A stretch of 64,000 bases of DNA from Cyanobacteria bacterium RU_5_0 (GTDB lineage: Bacteria; Cyanobacteriota; Cyanobacteriia; Elainellales; Elainellaceae): contig JAAUSF010000010.1 of NCBI GenBank assembly GCA_012033255.1, forward strand, positions 1-64,000, given 5' to 3'. A program made the translations under genes and the position numbers. Below, piece after piece: positions 260 to 13,991 of this stretch (the stretch's first letter is position 1; the number at the start of each line of letters is the position of its first letter). Below the pieces are notes generated by a model. It saw only the letters and a list, made by a program, of their open reading frames with translations. It was not told the origin of the DNA and made no database searches.

Positions 260-2581
260 TTACTCCCTGAATTCGATTCCCTCATCTATCGCTCCCAGGG
301 CAATGAGCGAAGCCCTTTGAGCATCCGTTAACCCTGTCGCACCTGTAATATTCGTGCCTTCATACAGTCTGGGCACTCTCAGGGTTGCTAGACATACCCC
401 TGTTTGGACACCCCATAGTTTAATCGTTCCATTGGCACTGCTGCTGGCAAGAGTCTGTCTATCGGGGCTGAAAGCAACTGACCATACCCAACTGATATGT
501 CCTTGCAGGATGTGCAGACATTGATGAGTCTTCAAATCCCACAATCGAATCGTCTGGTCTTGACTGCCACTCGCAAGCACCTGTCCATCGGGACTGAAAG
601 CGATCGAGCGAATTCGATCGGCATGTCCTTGCAGGATGTGCAGACATTGATGACTCTTCAAATTCCACAGTCGAATCGTCTGGTCGTCACCGCCACTCGC
701 GAGAGTTTGTCCATCGGAACTGAACGCAACTGACCATACCCAACTGGTATGTCCTTTATAGGTTGCCAGGTATTGCCTATCTCCAGTGCGCCACAGGCGA
801 ATCTCACCATTTCTATGACCTGTTACCAATAGTTTGCCATCCGGACTAAATGCCACCGAAGAAACAGTACTAAAGGTGTAAGTCAACACGGGGTTGACAA
901 AATGGGTGTTGGCAAGATTGACGTGATACAACTTCAATCCATTGAGATAGGCTTGTCTGATCGTTAAATGGGAAAAGTTGGAGTCGCTGATGTCTACCTT
1001 TAGGTAACACAGTAGATTCAGAAGATTTCCGGCTGCATAACCCACAGAGAGGTCTAAGCGTTCTCGAATGGATTGCAATATTGATTGCGATAATGCTGTC
1101 GCAAATGTCCTATTTGCATCGGCGATCGGCTTAAGAATTAAACGAACTTGAGTTTCTCGGATATAATCTTTCGCTGTTGCTTTGATTAAGGCATGGCTGT
1201 TAAACAGTTCAAGCGTACCAAGTTGTAATTCTTCATTGATACGTTCTATCAGTCGATCGGTGACATATTCCATCACAACGTTTTGTAGTGTAAACCCGAT
1301 CGCCCCTTTCTCAATCAGCGATCGACGCTCCAGCGACTCTAACGTTTCCAGTAATTTCTGGGGCGTAATGGGTGAAACGAAATCTTCACGCAACTCGGCA
1401 AGGGAGACAAGTTCTCGGTTAATGGCTAACCAATACAGTGTTGCCTTTCCCAATTCTGTAAGGCGATCGAATTGCTGGTCGAGCAGATCCCGGATATCTC
1501 CAAAAACGGCGGCTCCTTGTTCCAGAAAGGTAGAGATATTGCCGGAGAATAGCTCCTGAATAGTAGTTGCAGCAATTCTGACGGCTAACGGATTGCCTGC
1601 ATAGCGACTCAGTAATTCTTGCTGCTCAGCCTCAGTTCCAGAAGCTCCTTCCGCTTGCAGAATTTTTTGTCCATCCCTTGGGTCAAGTCCCTGCAATGGG
1701 CGAGAACGAACGGGACGTGTTTTGCCTTCTAATAAGCTAATCTCTTTGGGTTTCTCTCGACTCGTTAATACCAGGCAACTCTGATGGGGGGATTCCCCAA
1801 TTCTGCGAAACAGTTCTCCATACCCTGCAAACCCCTCCCGATACTGCCCTGCCCGTTCTCCGCCCCGTAAAATGGATTCAGCATTATCCAAAACCAGCAA
1901 ACACCGATGTTGATTCAGATATCGCATCAAGGAGGAGATTAGACCATCCAGGGATTTCGGCAGATCGATTGCTTGTGGGTTGGAGAGGAACTGGATGAGG
2001 CTTCCCACCATATCTTCAACCAAGGGTGCATTACGGAGCGATCGCCACACCACAACCTCAAACTCATCCTGAAGTTGCTCACCCAATTTTGCCGCAAGGC
2101 TGGTCTTGCCAATGCCACCCATCCCTAGCAAAGCGACTAAACGACAGCGATCGTCCACAATCCACTGCTTGAGCGTGGCGAGTTCTTCCGTCCGACCATA
2201 GAAGATAGAAACATCAACCGCTTCACCCCAATCGATGCGATTTTGGATTTTAGATTTTGGATTTTGGATAGGTTCAATTGACTCCTCTTCTTCTGCCTCT
2301 GCGCTTCGTGCTAGTAGAGGTTTACGGTAATCTGCTTCAGCCAATTCCAAGTTAAATGTGCGGAAGAAGCGATCGAGGGTGCGCCGATCGACTCCTTCTT
2401 CAGCATCTAAGACTTTGGCAACAGTTCCGGGGTCTAGTCCAGTTTGTCCGCTTAACTCTTCGATCGTGTATTTTTCACCAAAGTTATGCTCACGTTCAAA
2501 CTCCCGGATGACTTCCAGAAGCTTTTGTTTGCCTTGGGATGTGAGAATAACGCCACGTCTGCGTCGAGAAGGCTGCGTCAT
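260..2581 (-). CDS. STAND (NB-ARC) ATPase with WD40 sensor repeats
   Basis: Predicted signal-transducing NTPase of the NB-ARC class, 773 residues. Residues 1-90 form a helical HTH-like domain that is also present in the 4378-5982 gene. A linker at about 91-125 follows, then a P-loop GMGGIGKT (153-160), a Walker B region (LLVLDNAES), a TSRE sensor motif and [10 protein letters not shown]. The C-terminus carries four WD40 units of 42 residues (about 570-735), each ending in a IRLW/IKLW-type strand, and a YEGTNITG-type tail common in cyanobacterial AAA-WD40 proteins. Family knowledge: such proteins oligomerise after the repeats bind a ligand and are thought to act in defence or programmed death. 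No effector domain other than the N-terminal domain is visible. The linker contains a short repeat (NPKSKIQN) encoded by an AAAATC-type simple sequence that also occurs at 3160-3193. The gene looks intact. The ligand is unknown. Confidence 0.92.
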
Positions 2582-2626
2582 GGGCGATCGACCATCAAGA
2601 TTGGGGGCAGGAGTTAAGTCGGATTT

Positions 2627-2665
2627 TCAGGAAGATAAGTGAGTTTTCCTGATCTTAAGCGAACT
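2627..2665 (-). promoter_or_regulatory. inverted repeat upstream of STAND gene, shared with the second STAND gene
   Basis: Read on the minus strand, AGTTCGCTTAA is followed by a CAGGAAAA half and then TTCCTGA. The halves TCAGGAA (2627-2633) and TTCCTGA (2646-2652) are inverted with 19 bp between starts. The block TTAAGCGAACT lies at 2655-2665. The same elements in the same order lie at 6020-6070 upstream of the other STAND gene. The element sits 46-84 bp before the start codon, as expected for an operator or promoter. The binding protein is unknown; the shared N-terminal HTH-like domain of the two proteins is a candidate (inference). Confidence 0.55.
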
Positions 2666-2842
2666 CTCACAAGCAGACGATTAAATTCCACATGGTCTGA
2701 AGGGACGATCGCTACAGAGTTGCCTGATTCAATTTCGATCGGCTCCTAAGTTCACGCTTAACCCCTGGATTTTCCCTGGTTTGTCGGCTCCAGAAATCTG
2801 AAACTGAGGTTAATCCGATAGAGAGAAATCAGAGGTGAAGCG

Positions 2843-3115
2843 ATGACAACGACATTGCTAATAACAAACAAGCTTGGTCAAGGAGTGGTAGACAAATCGA
2901 TCGCCCCTCACCAACCAGGACGCATCAAGTTTCAGGGAACGTATTGGAAAGCGGCATTGGCTGATCCCAATTGTCCAAGGATAGAAGTGGGGGAGTTCGT
3001 TCAAGTAGTGGGTATGCGAGGAATCACGCTATTGGTAGTTCCAGTGGTAGTTCCAGAGGGCGATGAGCTTCCACCTCAGGCTGACAAGCAGGTAATACCA
3101 ATTTTGAAATTGTAG
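2843..3115 (+). CDS. small NfeD-like C-terminal (OB-fold) domain protein
   Basis: This 90-residue protein looks like a stand-alone NfeD C-terminal domain: GQGVVDKSIAP, then a P-G-R-I-K-F-Q-G strand, YWKA, and VGEFVQVVGMRGITLLVVP, the usual order of strands in the small beta-barrel. It lacks the protease and membrane parts of full NfeD proteins and has no signal peptide. A good ribosome site (GAGGTG) lies 5 nt before the ATG. It stands alone between a STAND gene and a toxin-antitoxin operon. Stand-alone copies are common in cyanobacteria, often beside stomatin-like genes, but no partner is present here. The function is unknown. Confidence 0.72.
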   Translation: MTTTLLITNKLGQGVVDKSIAPHQPGRIKFQGTYWKAALADPNCPRIEVGEFVQVVGMRGITLLVVPVVVPEGDELPPQADKQVIPILKL

Positions 3116-3159
3116 ATTAGGCAGATCGATGACTGAAAGCATCTCCCGGTGGAGCTTTC

Positions 3160-3193
3160 ACAATCCAAAATCTAAAATCTAAAATCCAAAATG
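3160..3193. repeat. AATCTAAAATC-type simple repeat
   Basis: Short tandem array of AATCCAAAATC/AATCTAAAATC units between two genes. The same unit, in coding form, makes the NPKSKIQN linker of the STAND protein (about 2235-2270), so it is a dispersed low-complexity repeat tolerated in both settings. Confidence 0.7.
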
Positions 3194-3242
3194 GTATGAG
3201 TAATCAATGGGGCAAGGAGCGATCGGTTTCTGTCGGTTTTCA

Positions 3243-3647
3243 TTAGCGAAACAAATTGGGTGGAATGTGAAACCGAGCCGCTAACTCGTTAATTTGACGA
3301 TCGGTGAGTTTGCGCTCGTTGTTCAAAACCGCTAGAACGATCGCTTCGGTTTCAAAAATCGGAAGTAGATCGTTCAACTCCAGCTCGGATTCTTCCATCA
3401 AAGCTTTCAGCAGCTCCCCTACACCCAGTGAGGGCATCGGTTCATACTTATCTTCGTAATCATAAACGAGTATCCCTAGCACCTTCAGATAATCGCGATC
3501 GTCCTGGGTTAAATTTCCTTTGTCCAAAATAGAATGAATTTGAGCTTGAGTTGCCAGTAACTCTGCTTCATTGGTAATGGGACGAGGAGGAAAGGAATTA
3601 ATCAATTCCATGTAGTAGCTACTGGGAGTTTTTAAACCAATCGTCAT
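3243..3647 (-). CDS. higA: HigA-type antitoxin
   Basis: Last gene of a compact toxin-antitoxin operon. The ATG at 3647 is chosen over upstream starts because AGGAGG lies 8 nt before it; this gives 134 residues and a 29-bp overlap with higB. The C-terminal half reads as a helix-turn-helix of the HigA type (LLKALMEESELELNDLLPI, then ILAVLNNERKLTDRQI.ELA..F). The acidic N-terminal half would bind the toxin. Family knowledge: HigA neutralises HigB and represses the operon through its HTH. The pairing with the overlapping upstream toxin makes the call strong. Confidence 0.85.
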   Translation of the reverse strand: MTIGLKTPSSYYMELINSFPPRPITNEAELLATQAQIHSILDKGNLTQDDRDYLKVLGILVYDYEDKYEPMPSLGVGELLKALMEESELELNDLLPIFETEAIVLAVLNNERKLTDRQINELAARFHIPPNLFR

Positions 3648-3930
3648 TTTTCCAATCCTCCTTGTCATATTCTGCATGAGTTAGTACCGCACGAATAAAA
3701 ACCATTTGATATTCATAGTCAATAAAGGTAATCAGGCGATAGTTGTTGCCGCTGATGTTAAAAACCGTGAAGTTGCTGACCAAATCAGCTGAAGGGAAAA
3801 TTTGGCGCAATTCGTTGAAAGTTTGAAACTTAGCTTTAGAGATCCGCTCATACCAGAGTAAAAGTCCAGATTGAGCTTTAGAGTGTTTCTCCCAAAATTC
3901 CCTGAGTGTTCTTCGACTAATCACTCGCAT
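3619..3930 (-). CDS. higB: HigB-type mRNA interferase toxin
   Basis: 103-residue RelE/HigB-superfamily toxin, expected to cleave ribosome-bound mRNA. Landmarks are an N-terminal helix REFWEKH, WYERISKAKF, a central FNISGNNYRLITFIDY strand pair, and FIRAVLTHAEYDK, the conserved HTHAEYD-like end of the family. The toxin precedes the antitoxin, the usual hig order. It overlaps the small upstream gene by 14 bp and higA by 29 bp, so all four genes should be translated from one message. Confidence 0.87.
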   Translation of the reverse strand: MRVISRRTLREFWEKHSKAQSGLLLWYERISKAKFQTFNELRQIFPSADLVSNFTVFNISGNNYRLITFIDYEYQMVFIRAVLTHAEYDKEDWKNDDWFKNSQ

Positions 3931-4081
3931 CGAATTTTTCTTCTCCTCGCACTTTATCTCTAATTTGCTGTTGGTAGGTTTCTAAAATTTTTTCGATCGC
4001 CTGCCAATCTTGATAATTGATCAGAACAGCGACAGGGCGCATCGATTCATCGGTAACAACATCACCCTTACTTACTGCCAC
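3917..4081 (-). CDS. 54-residue Phd/YefM-like antitoxin-type protein
   Basis: Tiny gene hidden between two longer ones. It starts at GTG (4081-4079), with GAGGA 9 nt upstream, and ends with TAG at 3917. It overlaps the 75-residue gene by 10 bp and higB by 14 bp. The translation contains GDVVTDESMRPVAVLI and YQDWQAIEKILE, which matches the C-terminal half of Phd/YefM-type antitoxins (AVLIS..DW..I..TL), but the usual N-terminal DNA-binding part is short. I infer a stripped-down antitoxin or toxin-neutralising peptide. Its partner could be higB or a lost toxin. Confidence 0.62.
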   Translation of the reverse strand: MAVSKGDVVTDESMRPVAVLINYQDWQAIEKILETYQQQIRDKVRGEEKFDASD

Positions 4082-4299
4082 TCGATCGCTTCCTCATCTT
4101 CAAGGGTATACAAATCAGGTTCGTCATGCCAAAAATCAAATGAACCGCCCTGCTCAGCAAGATAAGCCAACTCACGAGTTGAAGGATAGGGAAGTTCGCC
4201 TAAGAGCTTTTCTAGTAACAAAGACTGCTCTGCCGCTGGAAGAGAACGAATCGTTTGAACTAGAGATTCAACTAATTGGATATTAATCGTTTCATTCAT
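4072..4299 (-). CDS. 75-residue conserved antitoxin-like protein, first gene of TA operon
   Basis: Small acidic protein: helix NIQLVESLVQTIRSLPAAEQ, then LLLEKLL, and an acidic end (DFWHDEPDLYTLED). Proteins of this pattern commonly lie upstream of toxin genes in cyanobacteria and are annotated hypothetical or antitoxin-like. The ATG at 4299 begins the four-gene overlapping operon that runs to 3243. No catalytic motif is visible. I infer an antitoxin or accessory role from pattern and position only. Confidence 0.65.
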   Translation of the reverse strand: MNETINIQLVESLVQTIRSLPAAEQSLLLEKLLGELPYPSTRELAYLAEQGGSFDFWHDEPDLYTLEDEEAIEWQ

Positions 4300-4377
4300 T
4301 TGAACTCACTCTCAACAAATCATATTTAACTTTCAAATCCCCTAGTCATAGCTATTCTATATTTCCCATCGATCGCC

Positions 4378-5982
4378 TCACCCGCTCCACCTGCTTCGGT
4401 GCTGACCTCTTTTATCGATATTAAGAATATTATTATCAAAAATAGGGATTCTCCCCAATCGTGTTATTGATAAAGCGGTTGCATTAGCAAAATCTTCGAT
4501 AGTTAAATAATGGTAGTAAGCTTCATTAAATAAATGGTATTTACTGGCGGCTTTGGACTCCGATTGCCATTGAGATACATTTTCCCTTAAAAGTTCAATA
4601 TCTGGTTTACTAGCCCACCAAGGGTCTTGATCTTTTCTATGGTCATACTTATATGTCCAGAATTCTGCTGCTTTACAATTTGTTAGCTTCCAATCTTCGC
4701 CTTCTCTCAAGCGTGAAATCGCCTCACTCCGGATCACCGGATGTAACCAATACAATCTATCTTCGCACTCCACAAACGATCGCTCCTGCAACGCTTTAAT
4801 CACGCGCCTAAATCTGTTTTCAGGCACATCCCAAAGAAGGCAGAGTAGCCCTTCGATCGGCACTGTCGGAACATCTTGATAGCGGTAGCAACCCATGCGG
4901 CACAGCAGGTTGTAGGCATCTGAGTCGATCTGTTGCAGGCGATCGAACTGTCCAACCACTAAATCTTCCAGAGCGCGTTCAATCAACAGATCATCTTGAT
5001 TGGCTTGCCAGTACGCCTCAATACTGCCTGCATAGTCGATGAGAATCGCACCACAGAGAATATCCATTGCTTTAGCATTGCCGCCATAGGCTCTGTGAAG
5101 AGCAGGCAATATCAATTCGTTCTCGCTCTCTATGCCTTTGTCATTAGAAGCGAAAAGCTGAAAGCGATTTTGAAAATACTGTTTCCACGCTTCTAGTGAC
5201 AGATCTTTAAGCAAATAATGTTGCACTGAAATGCTGTATTCATTCAGGCGTTCACGACTGGTAATCAGAGTGGTAGATTGTACCGCCGGATCAGTCAACA
5301 CGCGCAGCAATTCCACATAGCGGCGATGCGGCTCAATGAATTTCCCAGCAAAGTCCAGAGCAGGTTCCAGGTTATCGATCAGAATCCCAATCCGCTCATC
5401 CTGAAGTTTGCGCTTGAGCCGATCGAGCGATACAAAAAACTCCCGCCCCGGTTCTTCACCCAGTTGCCGCAGCTTTTCTTCAATCAGGCTTTCGATCGAA
5501 GCAATGTCTTTGGTTTCCTTGGCGATCGGAAACTCCAAAAACGAGCCAAACTCCTGCTGCAAATACTTTCGCGCCAATGTGGTTTTACCAACACCGCCTC
5601 TTGCCTGGATAACAATTACTTTTGCTCCCCGATTGACCAACGTATTGAGGTCGGCGATCGCCCCTTCCCGTCCAACGAAATTGGGATCAGCCTGTACCTG
5701 GAGCCGAGAAGATGGAGCCAAGTCTACCTCATGCAGTTGCAACCCAAACGTGGTGAACAAACAACGAATTGATTCTGGATCGACTCCCTCCTTTGCCTTG
5801 AGGATTTTACGAGTTGTCCCCGGATCAAGTCCGCCTTCCTTGACCGCACTAGTCAGTTCCTTAATCCGCTCCTGCGTACACCGAACTTCGTGTTTCAGTT
5901 CCCAAGCACGAATTGCCTGCTGAAGGCGGCTCAGTCCATCTGGAGTAAGAATACGACCACGGTCGCGTTGCTTTGAACTCAT
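4378..5982 (-). CDS. STAND (NB-ARC) ATPase lacking C-terminal sensor repeats
   Basis: 534-residue paralog of the protein encoded at 260-2581 in its N-terminal region: RILTPDGLSRL through LDPGTTRKILKAKEGVDPESI, the same HTH-like fold. The NTPase has P-loop ARGGVGKTT, Walker B GILIDNLEPAL, LITSRERL and YGGNAKAMDIL. After the NTPase and winged-helix region a helical stretch leads to YYHYLTIEDFANATAL, where related proteins start TPR repeats. Instead the frame ends in a basic tail (RGQHRSRWSG). The sensor is therefore missing, probably by deletion or frameshift, and the protein may be non-functional or a regulatory remnant. A copy of the shared inverted repeat lies upstream at 6020-6070. Confidence 0.85.
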   Translation of the reverse strand: MSSKQRDRGRILTPDGLSRLQQAIRAWELKHEVRCTQERIKELTSAVKEGGLDPGTTRKILKAKEGVDPESIRCLFTTFGLQLHEVDLAPSSRLQVQADPNFVGREGAIADLNTLVNRGAKVIVIQARGGVGKTTLARKYLQQEFGSFLEFPIAKETKDIASIESLIEEKLRQLGEEPGREFFVSLDRLKRKLQDERIGILIDNLEPALDFAGKFIEPHRRYVELLRVLTDPAVQSTTLITSRERLNEYSISVQHYLLKDLSLEAWKQYFQNRFQLFASNDKGIESENELILPALHRAYGGNAKAMDILCGAILIDYAGSIEAYWQANQDDLLIERALEDLVVGQFDRLQQIDSDAYNLLCRMGCYRYQDVPTVPIEGLLCLLWDVPENRFRRVIKALQERSFVECEDRLYWLHPVIRSEAISRLREGEDWKLTNCKAAEFWTYKYDHRKDQDPWWASKPDIELLRENVSQWQSESKAASKYHLFNEAYYHYLTIEDFANATALSITRLGRIPIFDNNILNIDKRGQHRSRWSG

Positions 5983-6019
5983 GGCAGTAGCGGGGGAGGT
6001 TTCAAGGTGTCTCAGTCAA

Positions 6020-6070
6020 TCAGGAACTTTAGGGAAATGACAAGGACTTTTCCTGCATTTTAAGCGAACT
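6020..6070 (-). promoter_or_regulatory. second copy of the STAND upstream inverted repeat
   Basis: TCAGGAA at 6020-6026 and TTCCTG at 6050-6055 are inverted, 30 bp apart start to start, and TTAAGCGAACT lies at 6060-6070. The order and near-sequence match 2627-2665. The spacing between the inverted halves is 11 bp longer, about one helical turn, so the halves would keep the same face of the DNA. It lies 38-88 bp before the ATG at 5982. Confidence 0.55.
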
Positions 6071-6243
6071 TCCAGACTCAGAGATTGAACACCTCGATCC
6101 ACAACCATCGATTGGTGCTGGTTTCCACATACCCATAGCAAAAACTTAACTTCTCCTCAAAAGACCGCTCTTTCCCTGGAGGAAACCTCTTCAATCGCTG
6201 AAACTGCATGTAGTTCGGTTCTTTCAACCAGAGGTGTCCAGCC

Positions 6244-6606
6244 ATGAATCCATTCCAGAAACTTGCTATCACCCTTCGATCGGTGCTGAAACCTTCTATA
6301 TAGCAAGGTCGATCGCAAGGTCAATTTTCCACAACAACAGGAAATTCTGTTGAAGAGTTACGCCTTCGGATTGCTCTGGAATATCTGCGTCAAGCCCGTT
6401 GTAGCTTCAACTTATCTCTTGTAATTATCACAATTGGTGCCATCATCAGCTTCAGAGGAGCAGATATGCTCTTATCTGGCAAAACGACTGAAGGTGCAAT
6501 TGCTGCTGTTGCTAATCTCCTTTCCAGTGTTTGTCACATGCAATTGGTCAAAGACGCTAATGAAAGGCTGGAGAAAAGCGCTACAGCTTTACAGGATGAG
6601 CAATAG
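6244..6606 (+). pseudogene. remnant of a TRADD-N-associated two-TM membrane protein
   Basis: The frame ending at TAG 6604-6606 encodes LRIALEYLRQARCSFNLS, a hydrophobic hairpin (VIITIGAIISFRGADMLLSG, then EGAIAAVANLLSSV) and LVKDANERLEKSATAL. This matches the two-helix membrane domain that follows TRADD-N domains in cyanobacterial conflict proteins. The same frame has an ATG at 6244 but is broken by TAG at 6301-6303, and no other start lies upstream of the conserved part, so the N-terminal signalling domain is lost. It lies next to STAND genes, the usual partners of such adaptor domains. The family assignment rests on remembered motif similarity. Confidence 0.6.
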
Positions 6607-7467: not shown

Positions 7468-7887
7468 ATGGCTCCTCTGCCCCATCATTCTCCAAAACAC
7501 CTTTCCCTCGGTCATCTAGAAGCCGAGATCCTGGATATTCTCTGGGAACTGGGTTCGGCAACGGTCAAGGATATTCACGATCGCATCCTGGCTGACCCCG
7601 ATCGCGAACTCGCCTATGCCTCCGTCACTACTGTCTTGCGCCGTCTCGCTGAGAAGGGTTGGCTGGCTTGTGATAAGCACGATCGCGCCTTCCAGTGGCG
7701 TCCGTTAGTCTCTCGTGATGAAGCGAAAATGTTACATGCCCACAATCATCTGCGCCAGTTTTTGGCAGTCGGGAATCCAGATCTTGTGGCAGCATTTGCA
7801 GATGATCTCGATCGCGCCAGTGTCGATCAGCTAGACGCCATTGCTCAACGCCTCAAAGCCGCTCGTCAAGCCAGGGAGGAAAAGTAA
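7468..7887 (+). CDS. BlaI/MecI/CopY-family transcriptional repressor
   Basis: 139 residues. The winged-helix N-terminal domain is clear: LGHLEAEILDILWELGSATVKDI, then AYASVTTVLRRLAEKGWL and FQWRPLVS; the C-terminal half is the dimerisation region. Family members repress until cleaved by a partner M56 metalloprotease. That partner follows at once, with the stop TAA overlapping the next ATG (TAATG). In cyanobacteria such pairs include PetR-PetP, which control the copper-dependent plastocyanin/cytochrome c6 switch; this pair may be that or another BlaI/M56 system. No beta-lactamase is nearby. Confidence 0.9.
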   Translation: MAPLPHHSPKHLSLGHLEAEILDILWELGSATVKDIHDRILADPDRELAYASVTTVLRRLAEKGWLACDKHDRAFQWRPLVSRDEAKMLHAHNHLRQFLAVGNPDLVAAFADDLDRASVDQLDAIAQRLKAARQAREEK

Positions 7888-8729
7888 TGCATCTCAGCTT
7901 AATGGTGATTGCCATTGCGATCGCCTGCCTCACTCGTCTTTGCAGATCCACCCCATCCCCTACCTGGACAGATCGCTGGCAACACACCCTCCTGACATTC
8001 CTGTTCGCGCCTTTGCTGTTATTCATGACGGCTGTAGCGGTGTTATGCATGGGAACTCAGGGGCAAATGCTAGGGTTGCCCGTTGGCTGGATTGGCTATC
8101 TGTTGGCGTTGACGTTCTTAAGTTCTGCTGTCTTGATGCTGATTGGGTTGGCAGGGCAGGGATGGCGATCGCTCAAGCAAATTCGTACCTATCCTCAAAT
8201 TCAGATCAACGGCGCAAACGGGCGTATTCTGGAGACTTCTTGCTTGTTTGCGGCTCAAATTGGCTTCTGGACACCAGAACTCGTGATTAGTCAAGGGCTT
8301 GTGGCTACACTCAGTCAAGAACAGCTTGACGCCGTCCTGACTCACGAGCAAGCTCATGCCCATCACCATGATACTTTCTGGTTCTTTTGGCTAGGCTGGA
8401 TTCGCCACCTCACGGCATGGCTTCCCAATACAGAACCCTGCTGGCAAGAACTCCTCTTACTGCGCGAACTTCGAGCCGATCGCTGGGCAGCCGAGCGAGT
8501 TGATTCGCTGGTCTTAGCCGAAACACTGCTACAAGTGATTAAATCTCCCCTGACAGACGCACAGCATTATTGTGCAGCATTTGGTGAAACCGTTTCTCTC
8601 AATCGCTTAGAAGAACGCATCGAAGCATTATTGACCCACTCAGCACAATCTTGTGAGACAAGACGGCTAGTATGGATTGGATTACTGTTCGCATTCCTTC
8701 CTTTGCTAACAGTCCTATTCCACAGCTAA
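7887..8729 (+). CDS. M56-family membrane metalloprotease (BlaR1/PetP-like)
   Basis: 280-residue polytopic protein. Membrane segments lie at about 1-17, 33-55, 64-90 and near the C-terminus. The zinc-protease motif HEQAH (HEXXH) is at 153-157, followed by the third-ligand region LLRELRADRWAAE. There is no penicillin-binding sensor domain as in BlaR1, so the signal must be something else; copper is the precedent in PetP. It is translationally coupled to the upstream repressor, which it should cleave. The N-terminus is short compared with BlaR1. Confidence 0.88.
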   Translation: MHLSLMVIAIAIACLTRLCRSTPSPTWTDRWQHTLLTFLFAPLLLFMTAVAVLCMGTQGQMLGLPVGWIGYLLALTFLSSAVLMLIGLAGQGWRSLKQIRTYPQIQINGANGRILETSCLFAAQIGFWTPELVISQGLVATLSQEQLDAVLTHEQAHAHHHDTFWFFWLGWIRHLTAWLPNTEPCWQELLLLRELRADRWAAERVDSLVLAETLLQVIKSPLTDAQHYCAAFGETVSLNRLEERIEALLTHSAQSCETRRLVWIGLLFAFLPLLTVLFHS

Positions 8730-13373: not shown

Positions 13374-13991
13374 TCATTTTGACGGATTCTCAGGATGTAG
13401 TTGATCTTGCTTCCATAGATGGGGGTTTTTAATGATGTAGTCACGAACTCTTTGAAGCGATCCTCCATTACGAATAATGCGTTCGTAATAATTACGCTGC
13501 CATAGCTTTTTGTTGAAGGACTGCCAACCTTTGTGTTTTACTCCTTGGATGTAGTCGTTGGTGGTCATTGTTTTGAACCACTGCACGATTTCAGGCAGGG
13601 GTGCACCTGTGTCTGTATCTTCGGGGTGGACACCTTCGGGGTAGACACCTTCGGGGTAGACACATAGGTCTACCTCTACGGATGTTGGATGGGTTGATGG
13701 GGGGTAGGTGTGTGGAGGTGTTCCTGTAATGACGATGATGCCGTGGAAATGATTGGGCATCACAATAAATTCGTCGGTTTTGATAGATGGGAATTTTTGA
13801 TTTAATTCCAACCACCAATGTTGAATCATTTGACCTGCTGGATTGGGGTTCATAATACCCCCAGAGATGTTTCCGAACAAGCATTCACGGTGTTGGGTGC
13901 AGATGGTGACAAAATAGGCTCCAGGTGTTGAATAGTCGTATCCCTGTAGGCGAATGGAACGGCGATGATGTTTATCTGGTTGGTAGGGCAC
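13374..13991 (-). CDS. REP-associated tyrosine transposase (RAYT, Y1/IS200-like)
   Basis: 205 residues. Family landmarks are RRSIRLQGYDYSTPGAYFVT, the HUH-bearing MPNHFHGIIV, IVQWFKTMTTNDYIQ, LWQRNYYERIIR with the catalytic tyrosine region, and RDYIIKNPHLW. RAYTs are single-copy, domesticated relatives of IS200 transposases thought to move REP palindromes. Oddly, a linker at about residues 90-130 (VYPEGVYPEGVHPE) is encoded by tandem copies of the same GGGGTAGACAC repeat that surrounds the gene (13619-13680), so the repeat has invaded the coding region in frame. Confidence 0.88.
   Translation of the reverse strand: MPYQPDKHHRRSIRLQGYDYSTPGAYFVTICTQHRECLFGNISGGIMNPNPAGQMIQHWWLELNQKFPSIKTDEFIVMPNHFHGIIVITGTPPHTYPPSTHPTSVEVDLCVYPEGVYPEGVHPEDTDTGAPLPEIVQWFKTMTTNDYIQGVKHKGWQSFNKKLWQRNYYERIIRNGGSLQRVRDYIIKNPHLWKQDQLHPENPSK

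Follow-up and report, generated by a model that had tools for sequence, protein, structure and literature searches.

Introduction

Filamentous cyanobacteria commonly encode STAND (NLR-like) proteins; to our knowledge, it is not known how most of them are switched on. Several described systems resemble the pair of STAND genes reported here. MalT carries a LuxR-type HTH at its C-terminus, and two regulators of the Xre family, HipB and the restriction controller C.Esp1396I, act as dimers on palindromic operators. MalT is a STAND activator whose multimer binds repeated MalT boxes cooperatively through its DNA-binding domain (PMC4381067). The cyanobacterial Pho box recognized by SphR is made of direct repeats of the 8-bp CTTAACCT separated by a 3-bp linker, which gives an 11-bp period (PMC1906773). 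In multicellular bacteria, conflict systems have been described in which AP-ATPase-TPR STAND genes lie beside TRADD-N genes (passages of PMC8195603).

The locus investigated here belongs to a window of 64,000 nucleotides from Cyanobacteria bacterium RU_5_0 (contig JAAUSF010000010.1). It recalls MalT by a putative STAND NTPase with a predicted DNA-binding domain and by repeated boxes, and one relative of gene 2 matches a MalT-like TPR region; it differs by an Xre-type, N-terminal HTH and by the sequence of the boxes. With HipB and C.Esp1396I it has in common the predicted HTH fold and a site that closely precedes the gene of the putative regulator itself, whereas the direct layout of the boxes and the large size of the STAND protein set it apart. 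The SphR Pho box is similar in being built of direct repeats of CTTAAC.T, but its period is 11 bp instead of 20-21 bp, and the present sites belong to a STAND cassette and not to phosphate genes. Finally, the divergent partner of gene 2 matches CyanoTRADDas_TM, which recalls the TRADD-N systems; the text of PMC8195603 mentions neither NfeD nor HigB, and no shared operator is described in those passages.

Two STAND genes with a common N-terminal domain

The two genes and their N-terminal domains are the following.

260..2581, minus strand: gene 1 (the 'D' gene of the cassette), encoding an HTH - AP-ATPase-like NTPase - WD40 protein of 773 aa
2282..2581, minus strand: Xre/HipB-like HTH domain predicted at the N-terminus of the gene 1 product (Pfam HTH_26, AlphaFold, Foldseek)
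4378..5982, minus strand: gene 2 (the 'U' gene of the cassette), encoding an HTH - NTPase protein of 534 aa
5683..5982, minus strand: the corresponding N-terminal domain of gene 2 (42% identity between the two)

The WD40 match of gene 1 and the predicted HTH are clear; the NTPase of gene 2 gives AAA_22 and NB-ARC matches that are both below the Pfam cut-offs. The product of gene 2 is shorter than its relatives L198, L199 and L201, which reach 769-794 aa and end in C-terminal TPR repeats. An HTH-like N-terminal domain common to both proteins, claimed in an earlier note on this DNA, agrees with the 42% identity and with a predicted Cro/C1-type (Xre/HipB-type) fold. Pfam HTH_26 matches the gene 1 domain only below cut-off (E=1.4e-3); the AlphaFold model of this domain has a pLDDT of 88.6 and retrieves HipB, ClgR and C.Esp1396I in Foldseek with probabilities of 0.95-1.0.

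A control sequence shared by both genes

The same note described inverted TCAGGAA/TTCCTG(A) halves accompanied by TTAAGCGAACT upstream of both genes, and these are present. In gene 1, TCAGGAA lies at 2627-2633, TTCCTGA at 2646-2652 and TTAAGCGAACT at 2655-2665, that is 46-84 bp before the ATG; in gene 2, TCAGGAA lies at 6020-6026, TTCCTG at 6050-6055 and TTAAGCGAACT at 6060-6070, 38-88 bp before the ATG. The halves are separated, start to start, by 19 bp and 30 bp respectively.

TTAAGCGAACT alone was discarded as a marker: the genome holds 5 copies of it, against 13 of the reversed control, and three of the five are not near any gene that encodes the N-terminal domain. A 48-bp motif profile was built from both window sites and related sites. 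In the organism's own genome (5.9 Mb), it retrieves only the two window sites (E 2.5e-9 and 5.1e-4), the next match having an E-value of 0.5; the likeness of the two sites is beyond chance. In 390 cyanobacterial genomes, 24 of the 25 matches of at least 24 bits fall at N-terminal-domain genes or cassette loci: 18 precede a gene whose product has this N-terminal domain and six lie in the same cassette from which that gene was lost. Matches followed by no STAND gene were considered as decayed promoters, a reading dropped since these 'orphans' are cassette loci with NfeD still present. Across the own genome and the 390 others, the site is conserved upstream of the putative regulator's own gene and its N-terminal-domain relatives and almost absent elsewhere; it is neither missing before orthologs nor equally common before unrelated genes, the outcomes named in advance as contrary to a kept operator. 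On this comparative evidence, the shared control sequence of the paired NLR-like (STAND) genes is real and evolutionarily kept.

Direct boxes rather than an inverted repeat

Alignment of the sites resolves them into the following candidate elements.

2646..2659, minus strand: gene 1 operator, box 1, CTTAAGATCAGGAA, containing a -10-like TAAGAT
2626..2639, minus strand: second box of the gene 1 operator, CTTATCTTCCTGAA, spaced 20 bp from the first
2609..2618, minus strand: third box of the gene 1 operator, CTTAACTCCT, spaced 21 bp from the second
2660..2667, minus strand: flank of gene 1 box 1, AGAGTTCG, with AA.TTCG conserved
6050..6064, minus strand: gene 2 operator, box 1, CTTAAAATGCAGGAA, matching the profile
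6032..6044, minus strand: second box of the gene 2 operator, CTTGTCATTTCCC, degenerate and with the usual spacing from box 1
6020..6026, minus strand: additional TTCCTGA arm in the gene 2 operator, the far half of the earlier note, also found after the usual arm in L129 and L014

The operator is best described as direct boxes in a row, cTTA(A/T)(A/C)(A/T)TCC.GAA, spaced by about 20-21 bp or two helical turns. Invariant alignment columns recur after 20 columns, the best direct lag is 20 and the second 40 (0.292 at lag 11 vs 0.496), and a third box is detected beyond the span of the profile (combined p about 2e-12). The inverted arms show no compensatory changes above those of shuffled alignments, and inverted symmetry is not what describes the site best. 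The proposal of a kept operator bound by a dimer on one face of the DNA can be retained in its first part, the operator-like element, and not in its second: direct repeats fit better than a palindrome for a dimer. The spacing change of one helical turn between the two genes is not confirmed either. In L129 and L014, relatives of the gene 2 type, the usual arm stands at +25/26 and is followed about 10 bp further, at +35, by an additional one resembling TTCCTGA; in gene 2 the usual arm is degenerate and the additional one is also present, so that non-equivalent arms had been compared.

Box 1 includes a -10-like TAARAT, 77-94 bp upstream of the STAND start. A search for consensus sigma-70 promoters found none, and assigning the role of a -10 to box 1 is a guess.

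Divergent elements and the cassette

The remainder of the two upstream regions had been considered unlike. Both contain, however, a second, divergent element located 115-120 bp upstream of box 1, cTAA.TTC-N17/18-TTTCCCTGG, which faces a small gene, NfeD-like or CyanoTRADDas_TM.

2746..2779, plus strand: divergent element directed towards the NfeD-like gene, CTAAGTTCACGCTTAACCCCTGGATTTTCCCTGG, whose CCAGGGAAA starts 120 bp from gene 1 box 1
2843..3115, plus strand: NfeD-like gene (PF01957), divergent from gene 1
3243..3930, minus strand: HigB-type toxin gene (3619-3930) with a partner of 144 aa (3243-3677); relatives likewise have this pair between the NfeD-like gene and gene 2
6145..6179, plus strand: divergent element upstream of gene 2, CTTAACTTCTCCTCAAAAGACCGCTCTTTCCCTGG, 115 bp from gene 2 box 1
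6244..6606, plus strand: CyanoTRADDas_TM-like gene (PF20712), divergent from gene 2, its frame broken in the window; an intact relative is L199:268-639

In the own genome, the paired-element pattern is found at exactly two places. In gene 1-type loci the divergent element is 119-122 bp from box 1, while in gene 2-type loci this distance is variable (98-208 bp). The gene order is conserved: CyanoTRADDas_TM divergent from an HTH-STAND-TPR gene, then HigB and its partner (or DUF29), then NfeD-like divergent from an HTH-STAND-WD40 gene. The two window sites are best explained as copies of one operator belonging to this conserved cyanobacterial cassette. Conservation, specificity, direct-repeat layout and near-fixed spacing all follow from the comparison of the sequences.

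Proposed regulation and competing explanations

The operator is probably bound by the DNA-binding end of the STAND proteins themselves. Most likely, copies of their Xre/HipB-like N-terminal HTH would occupy adjacent boxes along the same face of the helix. As box 1 overlaps the likely promoter, binding there would hold down the expression of the gene that encodes the bound protein, and the two STAND genes would cross-regulate each other because they have the boxes in common. The back-to-back element, 119-122 bp away in gene 1-type loci, would bring the divergent partner, NfeD-like or TRADDas_TM, under this control too, perhaps via a single nucleoprotein complex or loop. Binding by this HTH, repression and the effect on the divergent gene are inferences. 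Autoregulation, suggested earlier, is plausible given a predicted Xre/HipB-type HTH in genes that bear a kept operator-like element. Taken as a whole, the evidence is best read as a cassette operator bound by the proteins' own HTH, which would serve autoregulation and also act on the divergent partner; in this reading we place slightly more belief than doubt. 

Such an operator, with conserved box spacing and common to two STAND genes and their small divergent partners, offers a concrete test of self-regulation of dose and a way to examine whether STAND proteins report activation as transcription. It also suggests that the NfeD-like, TRADDas_TM and HigB-pair genes belong to the STAND system. 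More tentatively, and with doubt prevailing, a new type of STAND (NLR-like) control may be envisaged: cassette NTPases, probably oligomeric, would use their own N-terminal HTH on the direct boxes of a divergent double operator whose length, about 120 bp, is nearly fixed, their oligomeric state being read out directly as transcription of themselves, of the sister STAND gene and of the small partner (NfeD-like or TRADDas_TM).

The motif is clustered on the tree of the N-terminal domain (6 changes vs 16.5). An Asp at the start of the recognition helix is found in 20/20 domains with the motif and in 4/34 without it, with too few independent pairs to exclude shared ancestry. The boxes are no general feature of the domain, since most of its subfamilies lack them: a box search at the remaining N-terminal-domain genes gave 5/64 at p<0.05.

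A regulator encoded elsewhere could bind the boxes, the STAND HTH acting at other places or not on DNA. We consider this rather unlikely, yet it has the most to recommend it among the alternatives. Another binder is possible because operator and NfeD are kept together in at least six loci without a gene 1 homolog, and because G030 retains the operator beside NfeD when its best N-terminal-domain match is as weak as E 3e-10. In G009, one three-box site precedes a SWIM zinc-finger gene. By its letters, the nearest known site is the SphR Pho box, likewise a direct repeat, CTTAACCT being identical to CTTAACTT at 7/8 positions. This identity is rejected on the period (11 bp vs 20-21 bp), and no phosphate gene is found among the strong matches whose downstream gene was read. 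The restriction of strong matches to one gene cassette and one domain clade is also unlike a global regulator.

It is improbable that the element mainly serves the small partner, NfeD-like or TRADDas_TM, and that the STAND genes simply adjoin the control region of that partner. The loci that keep operator and NfeD in the absence of a gene 1 homolog, and the near-fixed distance from divergent element to box 1, would agree with it; the boxes, however, point at the STAND genes, at a near-constant 77-94 bp from the start of the domain, and they occur with no NfeD match in the fetched flanks at gene 2-type genes, G005, G037 and G304:C1:3541430.

Still less credit can be given to shared ancestry alone, in which a cassette inherited or duplicated as a block has sites that have yet to diverge. 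The conserved cassette order and the sites remaining after gene loss are compatible with it, but boxes and distances are kept around a largely randomised spacer (37% identity in gene 1-type loci, 27% when shuffled, vs 61-72% in the elements), and conservation spans several cyanobacterial families whose N-terminal domains are only about 40% identical. A hairpin formed by the 5' untranslated RNA, suggested by the complementary seven-base arms of gene 1, 12 nt apart, is scarcely credible, as a structured leader was rejected for want of compensatory base changes in the stem above shuffles and would leave the third box and the divergent element unexplained.

A conserved operator upstream of the STAND genes

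Two neighbouring STAND genes of the window, one of the WD40 type (gene 1) and one of the TPR type (gene 2), encode proteins with N-terminal domains that are 42% identical.

260-2581, minus strand: gene 1, 773 aa, NTPase and WD40
4378-5982, minus strand: gene 2, 534 aa, NTPase

Relatives of gene 2 reach 769-794 aa with C-terminal TPR, and the shorter window copy may therefore be truncated. Upstream regions of N-terminal-domain genes were drawn from 40 relatives, and a scan covering 84,980 species genomes supplied others. A subset of them shares the consensus GCTTAARATCrGGAAAA...CTTATCTTCC.GAA at a near-constant position; in the seed set it lies 77-94 bp 5' of the domain start. A DNA profile of this operator, built from 15 sites, detected in the organism's own genome the two window sites alone (rough Infernal E-values of 2.5e-9 and 5.1e-4; next match 0.5), at two of the five genes encoding the domain. 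In 390 cyanobacterial genomes it produced 25 matches of at least 24 bits, about half of which were absent from the profile-building set. Eighteen lie directly upstream of an N-terminal-domain gene (motif end to gene +53 to +66 bp where measured), six adjoin a divergent NfeD-like gene at loci without a gene-1 homolog, and one, in genome G002, is without explanation. These counts agree with the kept operator proposed in the earlier note, whose sequences and coordinates (TCAGGAA...TTCCTG(A), 2627-2665 and 6020-6070) are correct. No description of this operator was found in the openly licensed papers searched.

Layout of the operator

Judged from its sequence, the operator is best read as a series of direct repeats, cTTA(A/T)(A/C)(A/T)TCC.GAA, about two helical turns apart. 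The invariant columns of box 1 reappear 20 columns on, in box 2, and most sites have a third box, CTTAACTTCC, at +39 to +41, beyond the profile. Scored with box 2 of other clades, the third box gives a combined p of ~2e-12, a guide only as the sites are related. In a self-match scan, direct lags of 20 (0.496) and 40 (0.407) rank first and second, against 0.399 for the inverted register that the earlier note had taken for the layout, and covariation between the inverted arms does not exceed that in shuffles. The proposed shift of spacing by one helical turn is likewise unsupported: the far arm at gene 2, about one turn further, is an additional one, and two other gene-2-type loci (L129 and L014) carry both this arm and the usual one. 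Box 2 of the gene 2 operator is degenerate (CTTGTCATTTCCC).

The only strong three-box site seen upstream of an unrelated gene (L203:1206-1300, genome G009) consists of three near-perfect boxes 28 bp 5' of a SWIM zinc-finger gene, with NfeD divergent. In its letters the Pho box comes closest among known sites, but it repeats every 11 bp, a period at odds with that of the operator (PMC1906773).

Gene cassette and divergent element

In the window and its relatives, the gene order runs from a CyanoTRADDas_TM gene, divergent from an HTH-STAND-TPR gene (gene 2 type), through HigB with a 144-aa partner, or DUF29, to an NfeD-like gene divergent from an HTH-STAND-WD40 gene (gene 1 type); the TRADDas_TM gene was checked in this order at the window and at relative locus L199. 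The window copy, a CyanoTRADDas_TM-like gene (6244-6606, plus strand) that diverges from gene 2, is interrupted by a stop and a frame change, and an intact relative lies at L199:268-639. The HigB-type toxin gene (PF09907, E 2.4e-31) and its partner, of no Pfam family, occupy 3243-3930 on the minus strand; this pair separates the STAND genes in the window and in G103, G041 and G242, and a DUF29 gene is found there in other relatives. The TRADD-N paper (PMC8195603) reports AP-ATPase-TPR neighbours of TRADD-N genes and holds no mention of NfeD.

The NfeD-like gene has a conserved element of its own, cTTAA.TTC...CTTAAC..CTGGATTTTCCCTGG, back to back with the gene-1 operator. Its CCAGGGAAA begins 119-122 bp before box 1 at the 15 gene-1-type loci measured, and the spacer is 37% identical (27% when shuffled) versus 61-72% in both elements; at a further locus, in G010, the gap is 214 bp instead of 97. 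The element is also present at gene-2-type loci, where the distance is 98-208 bp, with 115 bp in the window. A search of the own genome for TAANTTC-N13-20-TTTCCCTGG gave two matches and no more, at 2747 and 6147; across 60 genomes the pattern matched 17 times, and its reversed control twice. Of the 17 loci fetched around these matches, 9 contain an operator site according to the profile. Since the element stands upstream of both STAND genes, the remainder of the two upstream regions is not unlike, contrary to what had been claimed.

The N-terminal domain and proposed control

A Cro/C1-type HTH fold is predicted for the N-terminal domain. Its AlphaFold model (mean pLDDT 88.6) has the corresponding helix layout, with residues 47-54 of the modelled stretch as the putative recognition helix, and the top Foldseek matches are a phage repressor, HipB, ClgR and C.Esp1396I (probability 0.95-1.0, E only 0.02-0.1). 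Motif-bearing genes group strongly together in a tree built from 54 domains (6 changes vs 16.5 in shuffles). An Asp opens the putative recognition helix in 20/20 motif-bearing domains versus 4/34 without the motif, an association that fits co-evolution of domain and site and is confounded with ancestry.

Sequence comparison shows the site, its specificity, the layout of its repeats and the near-fixed distance. For the binder, the sign of regulation and the effect on the divergent gene, we infer as the best reading that the STAND proteins would contact the boxes with their N-terminal HTH, restrict their own promoters (the -10-like hexamer TAARAT falls within box 1) and control the divergent small gene. 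A consensus sigma-70 promoter was looked for and not found. The boxes are common to TPR and WD40 types, so that the paired genes may regulate each other. HipB and restriction controllers share with this domain its predicted fold and the autoregulation proposed here, but they bind palindromes whereas the boxes are direct. A functional model is provided by MalT, a STAND protein whose multimers bind repeated boxes (PMC4381067), although its HTH differs in type and position.

The strongest counter-evidence to binding by the STAND proteins is that the operator is kept beside NfeD where gene 1 was lost, and in genome G030. There (L200:10779-10819), operator and NfeD-like gene are kept with no strong N-terminal-domain gene (best E 3.3e-10). 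This persistence could mean that NfeD depends on the site, that the site serves another regulator, or that the losses of gene 1 are recent.

Other sites and neighbours

Members of a domain subfamily with an IHPITVRKIL helix (L022, L034, L049) have a different upstream palindrome in common, TTTTCCAAAAT(T/C)GGAAAG, about 70-150 bp 5' of the N-terminal domain, a hint that every domain subfamily may keep a site of its own. In the subclade of L017, L090 and L193, LTPDT replaces LD.GT in the recognition helix and the site is changed to CTTTAAGATC or CCTTAAGATC, then AAGATCAAGATCTTTC, about 95-105 bp 5' of the domain. Downstream of the cassette, the window carries a gene pair for a BlaI-type repressor (PF03965) and an M56/M48-type peptidase (7468-8729, plus strand). 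The window also has an IS200-like transposase gene (13374-13991, minus strand) whose Y1_Tnp match is slightly under the Pfam cut-off.
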